The translations under genes and the position numbers were made by a program. A stretch of 26,912 nucleotides of DNA from a virus. The stretch's first letter is position 1; every line of letters starts with the position of its first letter. The stretch spans positions 1 through 26,912 of the IMG/VR virus record IMGVR_UViG_3300025128_000262. One strand, given 5' to 3'. Of this stretch, positions 4,881 to 25,210 are shown in pieces. Below the pieces are notes generated by a model that worked only from the letters and a program-made list of their open reading frames with translations, had not been told where the DNA came from and did no database searches.

Positions 4881-5221
4881 GTATTACTCCCAGCTCTTTC
4901 TTTATGCTTTTCATAATTACTGTATTGCTTTTTAAGATAATTATCAACTTTATATATCTTACGTCCTTCTATAGTATCATAATATGTCGTGTAATTAGCA
5001 AACATAGAATTAGATAAAGCTATAGGAATAGATGCATATATATCATCTGCCTGTACTACTTCTGATACAAAATATTTCCATACTTTAACAAAATCTAATT
5101 TTGCTTCCATATTATCTGTAACCAGTACTCCTGCTATCATATATCCATTTAACTTTCTGTCAAATCTATAAAATAAAGCAGCTTCACCTTCCTGTATTAA
5201 ACTTACGTGTGTAAATATCAT
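4877..5221 (-). CDS. Unknown 114-aa protein between KAS and portal
   Basis: Not recognised with confidence. It is a compact mixed alpha/beta sequence: a hydrophobic strand-like LNGYMIAGVLVT near residue 25, a helix around 40-55, then DDIYASIPIALSNSMF and an aromatic GRKIYKVDNYLKK segment at about 87-99. The 'GD/DD-x-Y...IP...GR-x-IYK' pattern faintly recalls degenerate GNAT-like small virion proteins of podoviruses, but key acetyl-CoA motifs are not visible. It overlaps KAS upstream and portal downstream by 4 bases each, so it is tightly coupled to both. It could be a third component of the ACP-KAS pathway or a head protein. Nothing in the sequence decides between these. Confidence 0.6.
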   Translation of the reverse strand: MIFTHVSLIQEGEAALFYRFDRKLNGYMIAGVLVTDNMEAKLDFVKVWKYFVSEVVQADDIYASIPIALSNSMFANYTTYYDTIEGRKIYKVDNYLKKQYSNYEKHKERAGSNT

Positions 5222-6231
5222 ATAATCTCCACAATTACAGATGAATATACATTGCCCATTCCTGCTCCTAAACTAAGAAATCTGCCTGATTCCTCTTGTA
5301 TCGCAATAGCTGTTTCAATTGCAGTAGACACTCCCATAGTATGACCAATGCGTAATTTATAGTTTACAGTTCTAATATCTCCAAATTTCTTTTTAATTAA
5401 TATGTCCTCTATTTCATTATCCTCCGAAAAAGTACTATGAGTCTTAATAAAATCAATACCATCCGTATTAACTCTATCCATAACTTTTTCGTATCCAGCT
5501 CCTGTGCATGAGATACCTAATGGAGAGGCGTGATATTCCGCCGCGATATGTATATCTGGAATATTAGCTACTATGTTATTGTTTGTACTATAGTTACAGG
5601 TTTCACTTTCAAAAACCGATATATTACATCCTTGCCCTAAATGAAATTTAGTAATTTCTGAATTATTCTCTTCGTGCACTAATTTACTTAATTTATGCTC
5701 TCCAAATACATGTAAATACTCTTCTGAAAGGCCATTATCTACTGAAACTACTATAACTGCATCCAGACGCCCAGAATGTAACATATTATATGCAGTATAC
5801 CAGGCAGAATGTCCACTAATACAACTTACACTATCTGTTGATATATAGTCAAAAGATCCAAGCTGACTAGCTAAATACCCTGTATATACTTGAGTAACTG
5901 CCATTGGAACTACTTTATACGCTGGGTATTGCTCAGTTTTAGGAACAACTGACGTGTATCCTGTCCAAGAAGTACTACCAGAAGCTAATATTAATCCTAC
6001 TTTCCGAGTAGGACTAGCTAATAGTTCCGCAATAAACTCGTAGGTTCCAGGATTAGCTCCATATTGCCCTTTAAGTACATAATTAACTAATTCTCCTGTT
6101 ATTAATTTAATACCATTTTTAACAATTAAACCTCCCCCATTTCCAATTTGATGGGCATACTGGGGATACGGAATATTATCTAGTAATGTTAATTTCTCAG
6201 AATATACAGAATTAGTGTGAGTTAACAGCAT
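5218..6231 (-). CDS. Beta-ketoacyl synthase-like condensing enzyme (KAS I/II type)
   Basis: A 337-residue thiolase-fold protein. Condensing enzymes take an acyl group on an active-site Cys and join it to malonyl-ACP. All expected catalytic residues are visible. Cys137 lies in SVSCISGHSAWY, equivalent to the S-A-C-A nucleophile elbow. His265 lies in IKTHSTFSEDNEIE, equivalent to the HGTGTP..DE motif. Lys292 and His297 lie in YKLRIGHTMG, equivalent to K-S-x-x-GH. FHLGQGCNISVFE (196-208) matches the GFVLGEGAGVLVLE strand, and LSLGAGMGNVYSS (319-331) matches the C-terminal FGFGGTN loop. The second His, rather than Asn, places it with FabB/FabF and not FabH. It is about 70 residues shorter than FabF, mainly at the N-terminus. 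Its ATG directly follows the ACP stop, and it overlaps the next gene by 4 bases. Known cellular homologues act in fatty acid or polyketide synthesis. The product made here is unknown, and a non-catalytic role is not excluded. Confidence 0.85.
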   Translation of the reverse strand: MLLTHTNSVYSEKLTLLDNIPYPQYAHQIGNGGGLIVKNGIKLITGELVNYVLKGQYGANPGTYEFIAELLASPTRKVGLILASGSTSWTGYTSVVPKTEQYPAYKVVPMAVTQVYTGYLASQLGSFDYISTDSVSCISGHSAWYTAYNMLHSGRLDAVIVVSVDNGLSEEYLHVFGEHKLSKLVHEENNSEITKFHLGQGCNISVFESETCNYSTNNNIVANIPDIHIAAEYHASPLGISCTGAGYEKVMDRVNTDGIDFIKTHSTFSEDNEIEDILIKKKFGDIRTVNYKLRIGHTMGVSTAIETAIAIQEESGRFLSLGAGMGNVYSSVIVEII

Positions 6232-6579
6232 TCAATTAGGTCTATCTTTATCATCAAAGCAATGTTTACTATACTCTTTAGCCTGGCTGTAAGAGAAAGT
6301 ACGGGTAGATTCTTTAGTTACAAAATTTTTTAATGTTTGAATACTGAAATTTGGTTGATTTGACAGTTGTTTAAAAGTTTCTTCTTCAATACCAAAAAAT
6401 TCACATATCCATATAAAAAACATCATAGTACTTAAACTATCTAAATCTCGTATATTAAAACTGTCTTCCATGTTTGTTATAGGAATGAATTCATCACCAA
6501 TAGGCGTATCACTTTTTAAAATCCTATTAATGATATCTAAAAATTCCGTATCGGTAAATTTAAAAGTATCTGTAGTCAT
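6232..6579 (-). CDS. Acyl carrier protein
   Basis: A 115-residue protein. Residues about 10-90 have the four-helix ACP pattern: helix 1 EFLDIINRIL, a long loop, then DLDSLSTMMFFIWICEFFGIE, where Asp47-Ser48-Leu49 is the phosphopantetheine site and the helix 2 pattern follows, and a final NFSIQTLKNFV that matches the conserved 'T-V-x-D-l-x-x-x-i' helix 4. In cells Ser48 would be loaded with 4'-phosphopantetheine by a host AcpS-type transferase; none is encoded here. Residues 91-115 form a charged tail beyond the usual ACP length of about 80. It is the first gene of the leftward head operon, and its TGA abuts the ATG of the KAS gene with no spacer. No clear Shine-Dalgarno site precedes the ATG at 6579. 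The helix 2 surface is unusually hydrophobic (MMFFIWICEFF), which may reflect a dedicated partner. Confidence 0.85.
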   Translation of the reverse strand: MTTDTFKFTDTEFLDIINRILKSDTPIGDEFIPITNMEDSFNIRDLDSLSTMMFFIWICEFFGIEEETFKQLSNQPNFSIQTLKNFVTKESTRTFSYSQAKEYSKHCFDDKDRPN

Positions 6580-6646: not shown

Positions 6647-6916
6647 ATGAGTAAAAGCACCTTAACTAAAAAAATTGCTATTATATTAGATATTACATAC
6701 AGCAAAGCCTATGACATTGTTGAAATTGTACTACAAGAAGTAAAACAAGGAATTGCTGAAGGAGATCTAATAATACGCGGATTTGGTAGATTCACTGCAA
6801 TTAATAAAAATAAGCGTATAGGAAGAAACCCAAAGACCGGCAAACCCGCTGAAATTAAACCCCGTAGAGTTACTACCTTTAAAGCATCGAAGATATTTAA
6901 AAATAATTTAAATTAA
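6647..6916 (+). CDS. HU/IHF family DNA-binding protein
   Basis: An 89-residue complete member of the HU/IHF histone-like family, which binds as a dimer and bends DNA. The N-terminal helices span about residues 3-38. The signature GFGRF is at 45-49, and the beta-arm tip RNPKTGKP is at 60-67, with Pro62 in the DNA-intercalating position. The C-terminal helix is VTTFKASKIFKNNL. Length matches the family (about 90). It has a strong AAAGGAGG ribosome site. It heads a three-gene plus-strand island inside otherwise leftward late genes. It may condense phage DNA or aid packaging or regulation; host-derived IHF is the alternative origin. Confidence 0.93.
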   Translation: MSKSTLTKKIAIILDITYSKAYDIVEIVLQEVKQGIAEGDLIIRGFGRFTAINKNKRIGRNPKTGKPAEIKPRRVTTFKASKIFKNNLN

Positions 6917-19758: not shown

Positions 19759-21354
19759 TTAAACAAAATAAGAACTGTCTCCTTTATGTGGAGTCATATT
19801 TTCTCCCCACAATATTGAATCTTCTAATTTATCTTTTTCTTCTTCTTGTGGTCCTACTTCACTTGGTTTCCAAGCATTTAACTCTGCTAACATAGTAATG
19901 GTATCAATTTGGTCATCATGCTTACTTTTAAACCCTTTTAGAGTAGCTAAAGATAATTCAAAAAGCAACTCTTCAAGTTCTACACTATCTTTTAATTCCT
20001 CTGGAAACCAAATTTTCTTAGATTTAAATAATGGTATTGCATTTTGTTGAAACCGGCTCATTTTATCTTTAGTTGGCCTAATTCCTATAGTATTACTATT
20101 TTTTCCTTTCGACAATGTAAAATAATTATTACGATTGCCCATTTCATTTTGGATCCAACTAATAAATCCACCCTGCTGTCCTGTTGTTTCAATGCCTACT
20201 TCCTGAGGACTATATTCCTGAACTAATCTAAATAGTGCATCAATAGTATTATCCATTAGTGTTCGTTTACAAAAGCCATCTACCCACAACCAATCTCCAT
20301 TATTATTCAAAGCCCAAACATTAATTACACTAAAATCAGCATGTTCTCTATCAGATGTAGCAAAATCGGTAGTGATATAAAAATTATAAGCTCCTTTATT
20401 TTTAAGTACTGTACTTCTTTTATACCAAATTAAATCAGAATCATTAACGAGACGGTCTTCTTCACTCGTAATCCGTAACATTAACTCTTGATTAAAAGAA
20501 TCTAGTTTTCCGGCTCCTTTAGCTTTGTGATACTGCGTATTAACATACTCATAACTAAAACGATCCTCCCAGGCACCTTTAAATTCTTCTTCACTACACG
20601 GGAATTTTTCACAAACAGGATAAACATTTACATGCCAGACACCAGATTCAATAGCTTTATACAAAGGGTCTTTAGCATTGAACGGAGTCCCAGACCAAAT
20701 AACTTTACGTTTATTAGGATGTAGCGCGTAGTCAATGGCAGAATAGACGGTGTTCTCAACGTTTTCAATAATAGTCGCAGAACGGGCATCTTCATCACCT
20801 AATAAATCGTCAAGTACTGCAAGTTGAGGTCGAGTATTCAATTCCACTGTACCACGAACACCTGTCTTTGCACCATGACCAGTAACAACAAATTCTTTTC
20901 CTTCCATGTTTTTAAAATACCATCTGATATCCGTGAACCTGGATTCTTTAATAAATGATTTTAAAAATTCACTTTGCTCACATCGGCGCTCTATACGAAG
21001 ACGCATTTTCTTTACACCGTTTTCAATACTATCTGAAAGGTATAACGCATAATCAACTTTTCCAAATCCTGGAATAGATCCATATACAGCAATGTATAAA
21101 AATAAATACTCAGCAAATATTGTAGTCTTGGCAAGGCCACGGGCGCACATATTAGCGGTGTTTTGGGTTTTCCCCGCGATTTTGTCAAGCATCTTATAGT
21201 GAATAACAGGAGTTTTATTTTCTTCTCCTTTTTCTCCATTAACTAATTTAATAAACGAAACAAATTCTAAAGCAAACTCACTAGGAACATATGTAGGATC
21301 ATCTGCATACTCACAATCATTGAGCCACTCGTCGACTGTTTTCTTAGCTAGCAT
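19759..21354 (-). CDS. Terminase large subunit (DNA packaging ATPase/nuclease)
   Basis: 531 residues from the ATG at 21354, preceded by GAGGT; an in-frame TTG two codons upstream is less likely. The enzyme pumps DNA into the head through the portal and cuts it. The ATPase domain has a Walker A-like CARGLAKTT (70-78), Walker B LAVLDD (178-183) with the catalytic acid next to it, and the coupling motif SGTP (221-224). The RNase H-like nuclease domain shows Asp330 in FYITTDFATS, Glu389 in VGIETTGQQGG, and Asp480/Asp481/Asp484 in SKHDDQIDTI. Length and motif order match the family. Upstream overlap of 11 bases with the probable small subunit. Confident. Confidence 0.94.
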   Translation of the reverse strand: MLAKKTVDEWLNDCEYADDPTYVPSEFALEFVSFIKLVNGEKGEENKTPVIHYKMLDKIAGKTQNTANMCARGLAKTTIFAEYLFLYIAVYGSIPGFGKVDYALYLSDSIENGVKKMRLRIERRCEQSEFLKSFIKESRFTDIRWYFKNMEGKEFVVTGHGAKTGVRGTVELNTRPQLAVLDDLLGDEDARSATIIENVENTVYSAIDYALHPNKRKVIWSGTPFNAKDPLYKAIESGVWHVNVYPVCEKFPCSEEEFKGAWEDRFSYEYVNTQYHKAKGAGKLDSFNQELMLRITSEEDRLVNDSDLIWYKRSTVLKNKGAYNFYITTDFATSDREHADFSVINVWALNNNGDWLWVDGFCKRTLMDNTIDALFRLVQEYSPQEVGIETTGQQGGFISWIQNEMGNRNNYFTLSKGKNSNTIGIRPTKDKMSRFQQNAIPLFKSKKIWFPEELKDSVELEELLFELSLATLKGFKSKHDDQIDTITMLAELNAWKPSEVGPQEEEKDKLEDSILWGENMTPHKGDSSYFV

Positions 21355-22105
21355 CTTCAATTACCTCATAAGTTGCTTCTTTAAGTTCTTTTGGTTTAAC
21401 AATAATCTCACTTTGTGCAATTTCTCCGGCGCTTGCCTGACCATTCATAATCATTCGCAATTGCTGTTGAGCAAGTGCTTTAGTTGTATTTCTTAAATCT
21501 TCAACTATGTCATTACTATAACCAATATCTATTTCAACTTTAGCAGCAGCTGGAGCTGTTAAATTACTAATTAGTGATTCAGCTGCCTTTTGTCTTACTA
21601 ATTCTGATTTAGCTGTACGCATTAAATCGGCCTGGGTATTAATAGCTTCCTGGTAGATACCGGCATTTAGTATATGCGTCGGCACCATCGTCTGTTCCAT
21701 GATTTTTGTTATTAGTCCTGTTTTTCCGTAGTTATCGGCAAAACTCGCAATATAAGACGCGGAAGAGCCTTTATCTATTAGGTTCTGATAGCGATCCGGG
21801 AATACTTTACTATAAGCAGTAGATGACTTATCTCCCATTAATTTAAGAGATACGAACTTAATAGCATTAATATACGCAGCTAATGAGTATTTTCCTGTTG
21901 AAAGTACATTTGCAAAACTTAAGACATTATCTCGAAATACTCGTTTAAGTTCAGAATCCGGCTCTGAATTAATCATATTAACGATATCATCAGTTAAATG
22001 CTTACGAAATCGTTTATCAGGCAGTGCGCCGGACAATTGCTCTTTAGTTAAGTGATTAGTTGTTTCTATATCCGCATCAATATCTTTTAAATTAGCTAGT
22101 TGCAT
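21344..22105 (-). CDS. Probable terminase small subunit
   Basis: A 253-residue, mostly helical protein with no signal or membrane segment. It lies directly before and overlaps the large terminase by 11 bases, the usual place for the small subunit that recognises DNA and activates the ATPase. The central part (LTDDIVNMINSEPDSELKRV to YINAIKFVSLKLMG) could hold a helix-turn-helix, and the C-terminal part is long and helical (NTTKALAQQQLRMIMNG). It also overlaps the previous gene by 14 bases. Function inferred mainly from position. Confidence 0.65.
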   Translation of the reverse strand: MQLANLKDIDADIETTNHLTKEQLSGALPDKRFRKHLTDDIVNMINSEPDSELKRVFRDNVLSFANVLSTGKYSLAAYINAIKFVSLKLMGDKSSTAYSKVFPDRYQNLIDKGSSASYIASFADNYGKTGLITKIMEQTMVPTHILNAGIYQEAINTQADLMRTAKSELVRQKAAESLISNLTAPAAAKVEIDIGYSNDIVEDLRNTTKALAQQQLRMIMNGQASAGEIAQSEIIVKPKELKEATYEVIEDAS

Positions 22106-22400
22106 TGTAAACCTCGTTCCATTTAGTAATTAAAGCAGTATGAGATGCCGCGTCGGTGTAGCACTCATGAGGCGATACCATCCAGGTACTCTTATCTAAT
22201 TGGGTTAAAATACCTTTATCCTCCAGTTCTTTCCAATATTTATTCCAAGTTCTATAATCAGATATCCAGCTTACAGTTTTCGTAAAATATCGTTTATTAA
22301 TCTCATTGTTTTTATTAGATAATAACATAAGAGGCAATAAAATCGCATGCGCTGTACGCGATAAGTTTTTATGATCATTAGTATTGATGTATTTATTCAT
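22092..22400 (-). CDS. Winged-helix-like protein A, 102 aa
   Basis: A 102-residue protein. LSRTAHAILLPLMLLSNKNN, RYFTKTVSWISDYRTWNKYW and KELEDKGILTQLDKSTWMVSPHECY have the order of a winged helix: first helix, recognition-like helix, then wing. The 'W-M-V-S-P' wing-like segment mirrors 'Y-M-L-N-P' in the neighbour at 22545, so the two may be distant paralogues resembling plasmid RepL/RepA-type domains. Possibly a regulator or initiator. The lipoprotein copy B overlaps its start by 8 bases. Confidence 0.5.
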   Translation of the reverse strand: MNKYINTNDHKNLSRTAHAILLPLMLLSNKNNEINKRYFTKTVSWISDYRTWNKYWKELEDKGILTQLDKSTWMVSPHECYTDAASHTALITKWNEVYNATS

Positions 22401-22548
22401 CTACCTTTTCTTCTTCCTCAGCTTCATCGATTTCATCGTTAATCATATCTCCTATTACATCTCCTAATGTGTTAGTTAGTATACCAACCCCTACATCAGT
22501 AGCTACCGCACATCCATTTAACATTAACACGAGTATTAAGTATTTCAT
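22393..22548 (-). CDS. Small lipoprotein, copy B
   Basis: A 51-residue protein starting MKYLILVLMLNGC, with Cys13 as the lipidation site, then AVATDVGVGILTNTLGDVIG and an acidic tail (EEEEKVDE). Its core is nearly identical to copy A at 10610-10771 in protein and DNA. The ATG overlaps the stop of the 113-aa gene (ATGA) and its stop lies 8 bases inside the next gene. Missed easily because it is so short. Function unknown. Confidence 0.7.
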   Translation of the reverse strand: MKYLILVLMLNGCAVATDVGVGILTNTLGDVIGDMINDEIDEAEEEEKVDE

Positions 22549-22886
22549 TCACTCTTTAGCCCTTTACTAGTTTGTGTGTCCCACATGTGCTTAATTATAT
22601 AATATTGCTTGTCATTCCCATTAAACATAACATCTGGATTTAACATATACTCTTTTTTAGTAAATTTCCTAATTAAATCACATTTTTTCAAATCACGGAC
22701 TCCCGTAGAAAAGTCATAAAGCGTCATGCCAGATGTCGCGCAAATTGTGGCCGGAGTCCCAACTACCATATTTACTCGATTAATCCTATACATCATTTTT
22801 AGTAATACTAGGGCCGCATTACTTGAAAGCTTCGTATTAGCTAAAAAAGTCGCAGGCGCGGTCCCCAGTTGAAATTTATTAAACAT
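22545..22886 (-). CDS. Winged-helix-like protein B, 113 aa
   Basis: A 113-residue protein with SNAALVLLKMMYRINRVNMV, TPATICATSGMTLYDFSTGV, RDLKKCDLIRKFTKKEYMLN and PDVMFNGNDKQYYIIKHMW. The order resembles a winged helix ending in a 'Y-M-L-N-P-x-x-M-F-x-G' block seen in RepL-like replication initiators. It could be a regulator or replication-related DNA-binding protein. The start is preceded by GGGAGG and by a very short open frame at 22903-22929. Confidence 0.5.
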   Translation of the reverse strand: MFNKFQLGTAPATFLANTKLSSNAALVLLKMMYRINRVNMVVGTPATICATSGMTLYDFSTGVRDLKKCDLIRKFTKKEYMLNPDVMFNGNDKQYYIIKHMWDTQTSKGLKSE

Positions 22887-22965
22887 TCCGTGGTGCCTCC
22901 CATTATGATACCCTATTAGTGTTTCTCATTTCCTACCTCCTTAGGATGAAGCAGGAAGGGCCCGC

Positions 22966-23166
22966 TTATTTACGTCTGGATGAGCGGGTCTTTTCATTTC
23001 TCTTACCAATACAAACTACACAATATTTTTTATTTGAAGTATTCTCCCCGCAGCTCGGGCACGGGTGCGCCTGGAACCGCCTTGCAGGTTTACTATCCGG
23101 ATCAAACACTGGCTGAACTATCCTTAATAGATTTCCTTCCCCATCAAATATTTTAACTGGATACAT
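22966..23166 (-). CDS. Zinc-ribbon small protein, 66 aa
   Basis: A 66-residue basic protein. CPSCGENTSNKKYCVVC (36-52) is a C-x2-C...C-x2-C zinc ribbon, and the C-terminus is GKRNEKTRSSRRK. The N-terminal half is KIFDGEGNLLRIVQPVFDP. It has a perfect AGGAGG site. Likely nucleic-acid or protein binding. It is followed on the minus strand by a CCCGCT...AGCGGG hairpin overlapping its end. Confidence 0.65.
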   Translation of the reverse strand: MYPVKIFDGEGNLLRIVQPVFDPDSKPARRFQAHPCPSCGENTSNKKYCVVCIGKRNEKTRSSRRK

Positions 23167-23174
23167 TAAACCTC

Positions 23175-23300
23175 CTATTTAGTGTTTTCTTTCCATATTC
23201 CCATATCTACAGTATCGGTATTAAATATTGATGTTTCATAACTAAAAAAATACCAAGCTACAAATAATGTAATCCCAAGTGCCACATACCATTTAGTCAT
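23175..23300 (-). CDS. Small membrane peptide, 41 aa
   Basis: The product reads MTKWYVALGITLFVAWYFFS and then a polar tail YETSIFNTDTVDM... It has one transmembrane helix (4-20). AGGAGG lies 9 bases before the ATG, and a promoter-like pair lies just upstream. It is the first leftward gene after the divergent control region. Function unknown. Confidence 0.65.
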   Translation of the reverse strand: MTKWYVALGITLFVAWYFFSYETSIFNTDTVDMGIWKENTK

Positions 23301-23333
23301 TGTATTAGTCCTCCTATTATATTTATATAGACC

Positions 23334-23362
23334 ATTTTAACTAAAAAACCTACATATTTCAA
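23334..23362 (-). promoter_or_regulatory. Leftward sigma70-like promoter
   Basis: On the minus strand TTGAAA (23357-23362) and TAAAAT (23334-23339) are separated by 17 bases. Transcription would begin near 23327 into the 41-aa membrane peptide. The palindromic site at 23374-23399 lies immediately upstream of the -35. Confidence 0.55.
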
Positions 23363-23373
23363 TATCTATTCTC

Positions 23374-23399
23374 GTTTAATTTGATATACCACATTAAAG
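23374..23399. promoter_or_regulatory. Palindromic operator-like site 1
   Basis: GTTTAAT (23374-23380) and ATTAAAG (23393-23399) flank a 12-base spacer containing GATATA. It is the near copy of site 2, 32 bases away; 22 of 25 bases agree between 23374-23398 and 23406-23430. Likely a binding site for a dimeric regulator, shared by the two divergent promoters. Confidence 0.6.
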
Positions 23400-23405
23400 T
23401 ACCCT

Positions 23406-23431
23406 GTTTAATACGATATAGCACATTAAAC
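23406..23431. promoter_or_regulatory. Palindromic operator-like site 2
   Basis: Arms GTTTAAT (23406-23412) and ATTAAAC (23425-23431) are perfect inverted repeats with a 12-base spacer containing GATATA. Its right arm overlaps the -35 of the rightward promoter, so bound protein could block that promoter. The 32-base spacing from site 1 is about three helical turns. Confidence 0.65.
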
Positions 23432-23454
23432 TTTTTGTATCTCTTTGTTATATA
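23426..23454 (+). promoter_or_regulatory. Weak rightward promoter candidate
   Basis: TTAAAC (23426-23431) and TATATA (23449-23454) with a 17-base spacer. The -35 is poor (three matches to consensus) and overlaps operator 2, which suits a regulated promoter. It would transcribe the 23746 gene across a 290-base leader. Confidence 0.35.
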
Positions 23455-23482
23455 AGACTTATTACTTCTCTAAGAATAAGAA

Positions 23483-23532
23483 GCGTCCGCGGACTTCACA
23501 GAGCCTGCGGCCCTGTTCGTCCTGCGTCCGCG
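23483..23532. other. GC-rich inverted/direct repeat element
   Basis: GCGTCCGCG occurs at 23483-23491 and 23524-23532. CGCGGAC (23488-23494) also pairs with GTCCGCG (23526-23532), and the interior ACAGAGCC/GGCCCTGT can form an inner stem. The block is far richer in G and C than its AT-rich surroundings. It might be a structured RNA in the leader or a protein site; cannot tell. Confidence 0.45.
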
Positions 23533-23629
23533 AAATAGACATAATATATTAATATATAAAGAGTTATTTAATTTTTTAAGAGCCATTAGCAATTTTTTAT
23601 TTTTAGGTACGAATGCAATACTAACTGTC

Positions 23630-24174: not shown

Positions 24175-24293
24175 AGGAGGTAGGACTACCCGTGCTGAGT
24201 TAGGGGCGTTACTTAAGCGCAATTGCATACTACGCGATTGTTTAAGTAACTTGCACAGTTAAAGATACTGAAAAGCAAAGTCCTACCTCCTTA
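24175..24293 (+). ncRNA. Putative structured RNA with 13-bp closing stem and anti-SD arm
   Basis: AGGAGGTAGGACT (24175-24187) and AGTCCTACCTCCT (24279-24291) are perfect inverted repeats enclosing 91 bases. Inside, GTTACTTAA and TTAAGTAAC form a second 9-base stem. The right arm region ACCTCCTTA (24285-24293) equals the conserved 3' end of bacterial 16S rRNA (anti-Shine-Dalgarno). No open frame of use is present; a GTG-CTG-AGT-TAG mini-frame follows the left AGGAGG. It may be a leader switch for the 24321 gene or a free RNA. The structure is seen by eye, not folded by program. Confidence 0.4.
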
Positions 24294-25171: not shown

Positions 25172-25210
25172 GCAAATACATACCCTTCGGGTATTTAATT
25201 TGCATTTTTT
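25172..25210 (+). terminator. Intrinsic terminator
   Basis: GCAAAT...ATACCC-TTC-GGGTAT...ATTTGC forms a two-part stem with TTTTTT after it (to 25210). Confidence 0.75.

Follow-up and report, generated by a model that had tools for sequence, protein, structure and literature searches.

A predicted winged-helix regulator and a conserved operator pair at the late promoter of uncultured N4-like phages

Linear N4-like phage genomes have their ends between the leftward late genes and the rightward early genes. In phage N4, the early genes are transcribed rightward by the virion RNA polymerase and the late genes leftward by the host sigma70 RNA polymerase with N4SSB, which binds the β′ subunit of the polymerase and whose DNA binding is dispensable; N4-like phages also use extruded hairpin promoters (PMC4496689). 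In Bacillus phage phi29, the early-gene product p4 recognizes four sites with the consensus CTTTTT-N15-AAAATG, located next to the late promoter A3, which it activates, and over the −35 regions of the early promoters A2c and A2b, which it represses (PMC3100819). In MerR proteins, correlation between protein columns and DNA columns has been used to locate contacts (Prot-DNA-Korr), and a significant fraction of the correlated positions were side-chain-to-base contacts (PMC5045206).

The locus described here lies in a 26.9-kb viral fragment, hereafter the window, and its closest analogy is phi29 p4, although we do not claim membership of the p4 family. In both systems, a small phage DNA-binding protein (a predicted binder of 113 aa in the window) is accompanied by inverted-repeat sites between opposed early and late genes, in a compatible geometry. 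Unlike the p4 system, the window has two sites 32 bp apart with a variable inner triplet, and a RepL-like winged-helix (wHTH) protein encoded in the late operon; homology of this protein to p4 was not found, as its profile matched RepL only and a sequence search of the PDB matched no solved chain. With N4, the window shares leftward late genes, sigma70-like promoters, and the predicted use of host RNA polymerase, and its relatives carry genes for a virion RNA polymerase and an N4-type RNA polymerase, whereas activation in N4 is described through N4SSB and the window has a predicted site-specific DNA-binding regulator with dedicated operators.

Two palindromes are located at the border between the leftward and the rightward genes of the window (Table 1). 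The promoter-proximal palindrome O2 (GTTTAATTTGATATACCACATTAAAG) contains one mismatch and the distal palindrome O1 (GTTTAATACGATATAGCACATTAAAC) contains none, and a spacer of 6 bp lies between them, with a centre-to-centre distance of 32 bp, exactly as located in the preliminary description. When at most one mismatch was allowed, these were the only matches in the window, and dinucleotide shuffles of the window yielded a mean of 0.03 matches and two matches in 0 of 100 shuffles, which places the pair far above chance. The half-sites of the window include the imperfect inner triplets TTG and ACG. The leftward operon following the promoter PL comprises small ORFs, the 66-aa four-cysteine protein, the 113-aa protein, the 102-aa protein, the TerS-position protein, and TerL, in this order, and the genes to the right of the palindromes are rightward.

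Table 1. Features around the operator pair of the window and in the leftward operon.
Feature	Position	Strand	Remarks
Operator O2, promoter-proximal palindrome	23374..23399	.	Centre at about −59.5 of PL; kept in 48 loci
Operator O1, distal palindrome	23406..23431	.	Centre at about −91.5 of PL; outer edge is the expected −35 place of the rightward candidate
Leftward late promoter PL, TTGAAA-17-TAAAAT	23334..23362	-	Consensus match 10/12; conservation
Candidate rightward −10, TTATAT	23448..23453	+	−35 would sit inside O1, poor match
Conserved element CTAAGAATAAGAAG, then GC-rich stem-loops	23470..23483	+	Rightward side
First small leftward-operon ORF, 41 aa, TM-like	23175..23300	-	Other genes take its place in relatives
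66-aa four-cysteine (zinc-ribbon-like) protein, leftward operon gene 2	22966..23166	-	
113-aa RepL-like winged-helix protein, predicted operator-binding regulator	22545..22886	-	Pfam, AlphaFold2, covariation, one gene per contig
Predicted recognition-helix codons (residues 56–68)	22683..22721	-	Specificity residues 57, 60, 61 are Y, S, T in the window
102-aa second winged-helix protein	22092..22400	-	Recognition helix nearly invariant, without covariation
Small-terminase-position protein, control "TerS"	21344..22105	-	phrog_2109, weak TerS match
Terminase large subunit TerL, first clearly late leftward gene	19759..21360	-	

Judged by sequence comparison, the phage of the window is an uncultured N4-like (Schitoviridae-type) phage. 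Its near-complete relatives are 75 kb in size with TerL proteins 76–81% identical, and the contig of L022 (75.5 kb) encodes both a 583-aa N4-type RNA polymerase (phrog_2051/2166) and, in a region beyond the reach of the window fragment, a 4247-aa virion RNA polymerase ORF (phrog_2206, 4.6e-176; L160:1169-13912, minus strand), in which a Dda-like SF1 helicase region (872–1489) precedes the polymerase region. The virion RNA polymerase of N4 is reportedly smaller, at 3500 aa. PF00940 was present in 9 of 11 relative contigs, the N4-type second RNA polymerase was accompanied by the leftward gene order of terminase and a gp69-like gene, and the best cultured TerL matches included Schitoviridae (Pectobacterium phage CB1, Cbunavirus and relatives). 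The window portal matched the SU10 portal family, which hinted at a phiEco32-like system; this was rejected because a sigma70-family factor (PF04542) was detected in 0 of 11 relative contigs (some of them incomplete, and a sigma factor of very divergent sequence could escape detection) and because the virion and N4-type RNA polymerases place the clade with N4. A nucleotide search of cultured phages, Rfam and tRNA scans, and a search of GTDB genomes returned nothing informative. Elsewhere in the window, a FabF-like ketosynthase (5218–6231, minus strand; phrog_35856; TIGR03150, 7e-10) lies amid structural genes and adjoins a small protein whose DSL motif is acyl-carrier-like (6232–6579, minus strand), and FabZ-like ORFs were spotted by eye between TerS and TerL in L006 and L025; together, these genes point to a fatty-acid-type set in N4-like phages.

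To follow the operators beyond the window, relatives were drawn from 78 TerL relatives and 72 regulator relatives. In 48 loci including the window (37 non-redundant), the regulator gene was preceded upstream by a palindrome pair with a spacing of 31–33 bp and a spacer of approximately 6 bp. Most of the 48 loci had the GTTTAAT form; the pairs of 10 loci were obtained by a palindrome-pair search without a fixed sequence, which gave the GTTAAACGTTG, CGCA, and TATAAGTTGT types, and are less certain, since one pair was picked per locus from the top-ranked candidates. The outer half-site GTTTAA was nearly fixed, and the inner triplet was variable (CTC, GTG, GTC, GTT, CGT, ATC, and others), with symmetry in 199 of 288 cells and with imperfect or mixed half-sites in L118, L130, and L134. 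For the most divergent regulators (L019, L150, and L151, with WDFTHG; L141 and L142; and L030–L032), a convincing operator pair was not found. The preliminary description had named scatter of the motif through the genome as the observation that would count against it; in contigs as long as 75 kb, the operators occupied a single place and the regulator gene occurred once.

The leftward promoter that had been placed beside the first palindrome is supported by its consensus match and by its conservation in relatives. The distance from the O2 centre to the TTG of the −35 box was 23.5–25.5 bp in all 37 non-redundant loci, and the −10 box was nearly always TAxxxT. Relative to the start predicted from the −10 box, the O2 centre was located at −57 to −60 and the O1 centre at −89 to −92.5 in the 37 loci, and neither operator overlapped the −35, the −10, or the start of PL. 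The distance between the operators and the regulator gene ranged from 105 to 2116 bp across relatives because the genes between them are exchanged; since the promoter geometry is fixed while this distance varies, the geometry is tied to the promoter. PL is expected to be a host promoter, given that no sigma factor was found in the relatives and that N4 late genes use host sigma70 RNA polymerase; as those genes are likewise leftward, the leftward promoter of the window fits a late promoter. PL was also considered as a repeated promoter of a phage polymerase and rejected, since the PL spacer motif was matched in other places no more often than a reversed-pattern control; two near matches, one at each end of the contig of L142, lie in unrelated sequence without operators.

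Next to the operators, the 113-aa protein is the predicted binder. It matched Pfam RepL (PF05732, 1.8e-7) over residues 32–98 with 31.3 bits against a curated cut-off of 20.3, and this was its only significant family match. The AlphaFold2 model (mean pLDDT 80.6) showed a winged helix in which residues 56–68 form the recognition helix, and its fold neighbours were MarR/ArsR-like wHTH proteins. We compared the operator triplet with each variable column of the regulator, the 102-aa protein, and TerS (390 columns), in an approach similar to that applied to MerR proteins, except that the protein family is a different one and that each virus genome here has a single regulator with a single operator pair. 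The triplet of each locus was the consensus of its four half-sites, and the register of the L110 row was corrected by hand. The three top-ranked of the 390 columns were residues 57, 60, and 61 of the regulator, with MCC values of 0.80, 0.73, and 0.71, followed by 0.61 and lower values; because the statistic and the operator positions were picked once visual inspection had already revealed the pattern, this ranking confirms the pattern on a larger set and is not blind. In the model, these residues form one face at the start of the predicted recognition helix. Triplets and residues 57/60/61 corresponded almost one to one: CTC went with His-His-Arg (16 of 16), GTG with Tyr-Ser-Met/Thr (3 of 3), ATC with Leu-Asn-Gln (2 of 2), GTC with Arg-Ser/His/Asn-Val/Leu (4 of 5), and GTT or ATT with Gly-Thr-Leu/Val.

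Shared ancestry with TerS cannot explain this match, as the operator type was not clustered on the TerS tree: it required at least 16 changes, compared with a mean of 17.3 and a minimum of 14 for shuffled labels. The nearest TerS neighbour had the same operator in 17 of 37 loci, and the nearest regulator neighbour in 26 of 37. In two pairs of loci (L131 and L103, L090 and L094) whose flanking proteins were 87–88% identical, the operator and residues 57/60/61 both differed. The gap between operators and regulator gene is about 0.5 kb, so that block co-inheritance adds to the correlation; such linkage could produce a general correlation but cannot single out columns on the helix face. On these correlations, the 113-aa protein very probably binds both operators.

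The preliminary description had put forward two winged-helix proteins as candidate regulators, and covariation retained the 113-aa protein alone. The 102-aa protein was also predicted to be a winged helix (pLDDT 86.8), and it was rejected as the operator binder because its recognition helix (DYRTWNKYW) was nearly invariant and its best column ranked seventh. A nearly invariant helix should have a constant site, perhaps the conserved operator flank GTTAAGTGTTGC or TTTGTAAC. Just upstream of the regulator gene (22935–22995), there are conserved stem-loops, GCTCATCCAGACGTAAAT and CCTGCTTCATCC.AAGGAGGTAGGA, which were also found in L123, L143, and L155 and for which translation control of the regulator gene is a possible role. 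The window further encodes an 89-aa HU/IHF homologue (6647–6916, plus strand; IHF-alpha model, 9e-22), a possible DNA-bending partner.

Class I activators at CRP-type promoters occupy dimer sites near −60 and −90 on one helix face, leave the −35 box free, and raise transcription through contact with RNA polymerase. The sites of the 37 loci are placed in the same manner, near −60 or beyond and off the −35, and we propose that the 113-aa protein, a different protein from CRP, binds both palindromes and, in all likelihood, activates PL in the class I manner, in a switch resembling that of phi29 p4. Presumably as one dimer per palindrome, it would read the fixed outer GTTTAA, with residues 57, 60, and 61 reading the variable inner triplet. 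Bound at approximately −59 and −91, three helical turns apart and on the same face of the DNA, it would most likely touch host sigma70 RNA polymerase and thereby activate PL; we infer the sign of this effect from the geometry and favour activation somewhat over the contrary. PL would drive the operon of the regulator itself as well as the late terminase and structural genes, and since the regulator gene lies within this operon, an activator would establish positive feedback and a self-reinforcing commitment to late expression, which basal PL activity or N4SSB-like help could start.

The same protein and operators could instead serve a repressor or autoregulator that shapes timing by lowering PL (or looping the sites) and the rightward promoter, a reading that we regard as rather unlikely. 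The PL sequence of the window matches sigma70 promoters well as it stands, so it may be active alone and an activator may be unnecessary, the rightward −35 would fall where O1 lies, many MarR/ArsR-like wHTH proteins, the fold neighbours of the regulator, are repressors, and many phage immunity or autoregulatory circuits work in this way. In contrast, no operator covers the −35, the −10, or the start of PL, and the distances are of class I (−59, −91) in 37 of 37 loci, which argues against a repressor.

For the activator as well, occupancy of O1 would mask the −35 of the candidate rightward promoter. The preliminary description had the second palindrome overlapping this −35, and the two parts of that claim fared differently: a TA-rich box is conserved 17–22 bp from the operator edge, but the hexamer within the palindrome shares only some 3 of its 6 positions with TTGACA. 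As this conserved box is the sole backing for the rightward promoter, repression of the rightward genes is conceivable but weakly indicated, and we put forward repression of this promoter by the 113-aa protein as a tentative and somewhat doubtful suggestion. Likewise, the operators are firmly placed at the proposed border of late and early genes, but a simple divergent switch of two promoters is less secure, because the early start of N4-like phages is usually made by the virion RNA polymerase at hairpin promoters and the genome ends lie between the two blocks. In CB1, a 647-bp terminal repeat starts approximately 1.8 kb upstream of the TerL start, and the window operators are approximately 2.0 kb upstream; the operators may thus be in or next to a terminal repeat, in which case the two promoters need not share one end of the virion DNA.

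Further elements were observed on the rightward side. The stem-loops following CTAAGAATAAGAAG (23470–23545, plus strand) differ in sequence between relatives, and this segment of the window folds modestly better than shuffles (z −2.0); the element may be a leader RNA, a terminus signal, or a polymerase site. At 24175–24291, a perfect 13-bp inverted repeat (AGGAGGTAGGACT / AGTCCTACCTCCT) has arms 91 nt apart and a Shine-Dalgarno-like AGGAGG in its left arm. A search near the operators for N4-type hairpins with a 5-bp stem and a 3-nt loop found none before 25180, where ATACCC-TTC-GGGTAT (25180–25194) followed by TTAATTTG is a candidate rightward promoter of the N4 hairpin type, to be used by the virion RNA polymerase.

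A replication role, in which the 113-aa protein would be a RepL-like initiator and the palindromes iteron-like origin sites, with replication starting near the genome end, appears improbable. It would agree with the RepL match, RepL being named as a plasmid replication protein, with a weak match to the annotated RepL of Pseudoalteromonas phage HS1, and with a position near an N4-type genome terminus; however, the likeness to RepL is limited to the wHTH, the spacing to a sigma70 promoter is rigid, the regulator gene lies in a late phage operon with the terminase, and the rightward block of the relatives has its own DNA polymerase and RNA polymerases. That the tandem palindromes act as nucleic-acid hairpins (an RNA leader or an N4-type extruded promoter) rather than as protein operators is very improbable: extruded hairpin promoters do occur in N4-like phages (PMC4496689) and the inner triplets change together on both arms, but these changes follow the recognition-helix residues of a protein, the triplets keep their symmetry in just 199 of 288 cells, the AT-rich 10-bp arms are unlike the type with a 5-bp stem and a 3-nt loop, and both palindromes are upstream of the point where PL, which is conserved, would start transcription.

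With site-specific activation of PL as the preferred reading, these data name a probable regulator together with its sites and specificity residues for a group of uncultured N4-like phages; their late control would otherwise be assumed to follow N4, with host polymerase and a single-stranded DNA-binding protein. The natural series of matched protein and operator pairs allows a direct test of the wHTH recognition code, and the pairs are possibly usable as orthogonal switches. The system may quite plausibly represent a family, not described before, of N4-like phage proteins that control late genes site-specifically, each genome having a single winged-helix protein and a single pair of operators, in which specificity would have switched repeatedly (about ten triplets) and related phages would carry mutually orthogonal switches, perhaps against cross-activation of late genes in co-infection. 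Why close phage relatives keep altering the address of one switch thereby becomes a testable question.
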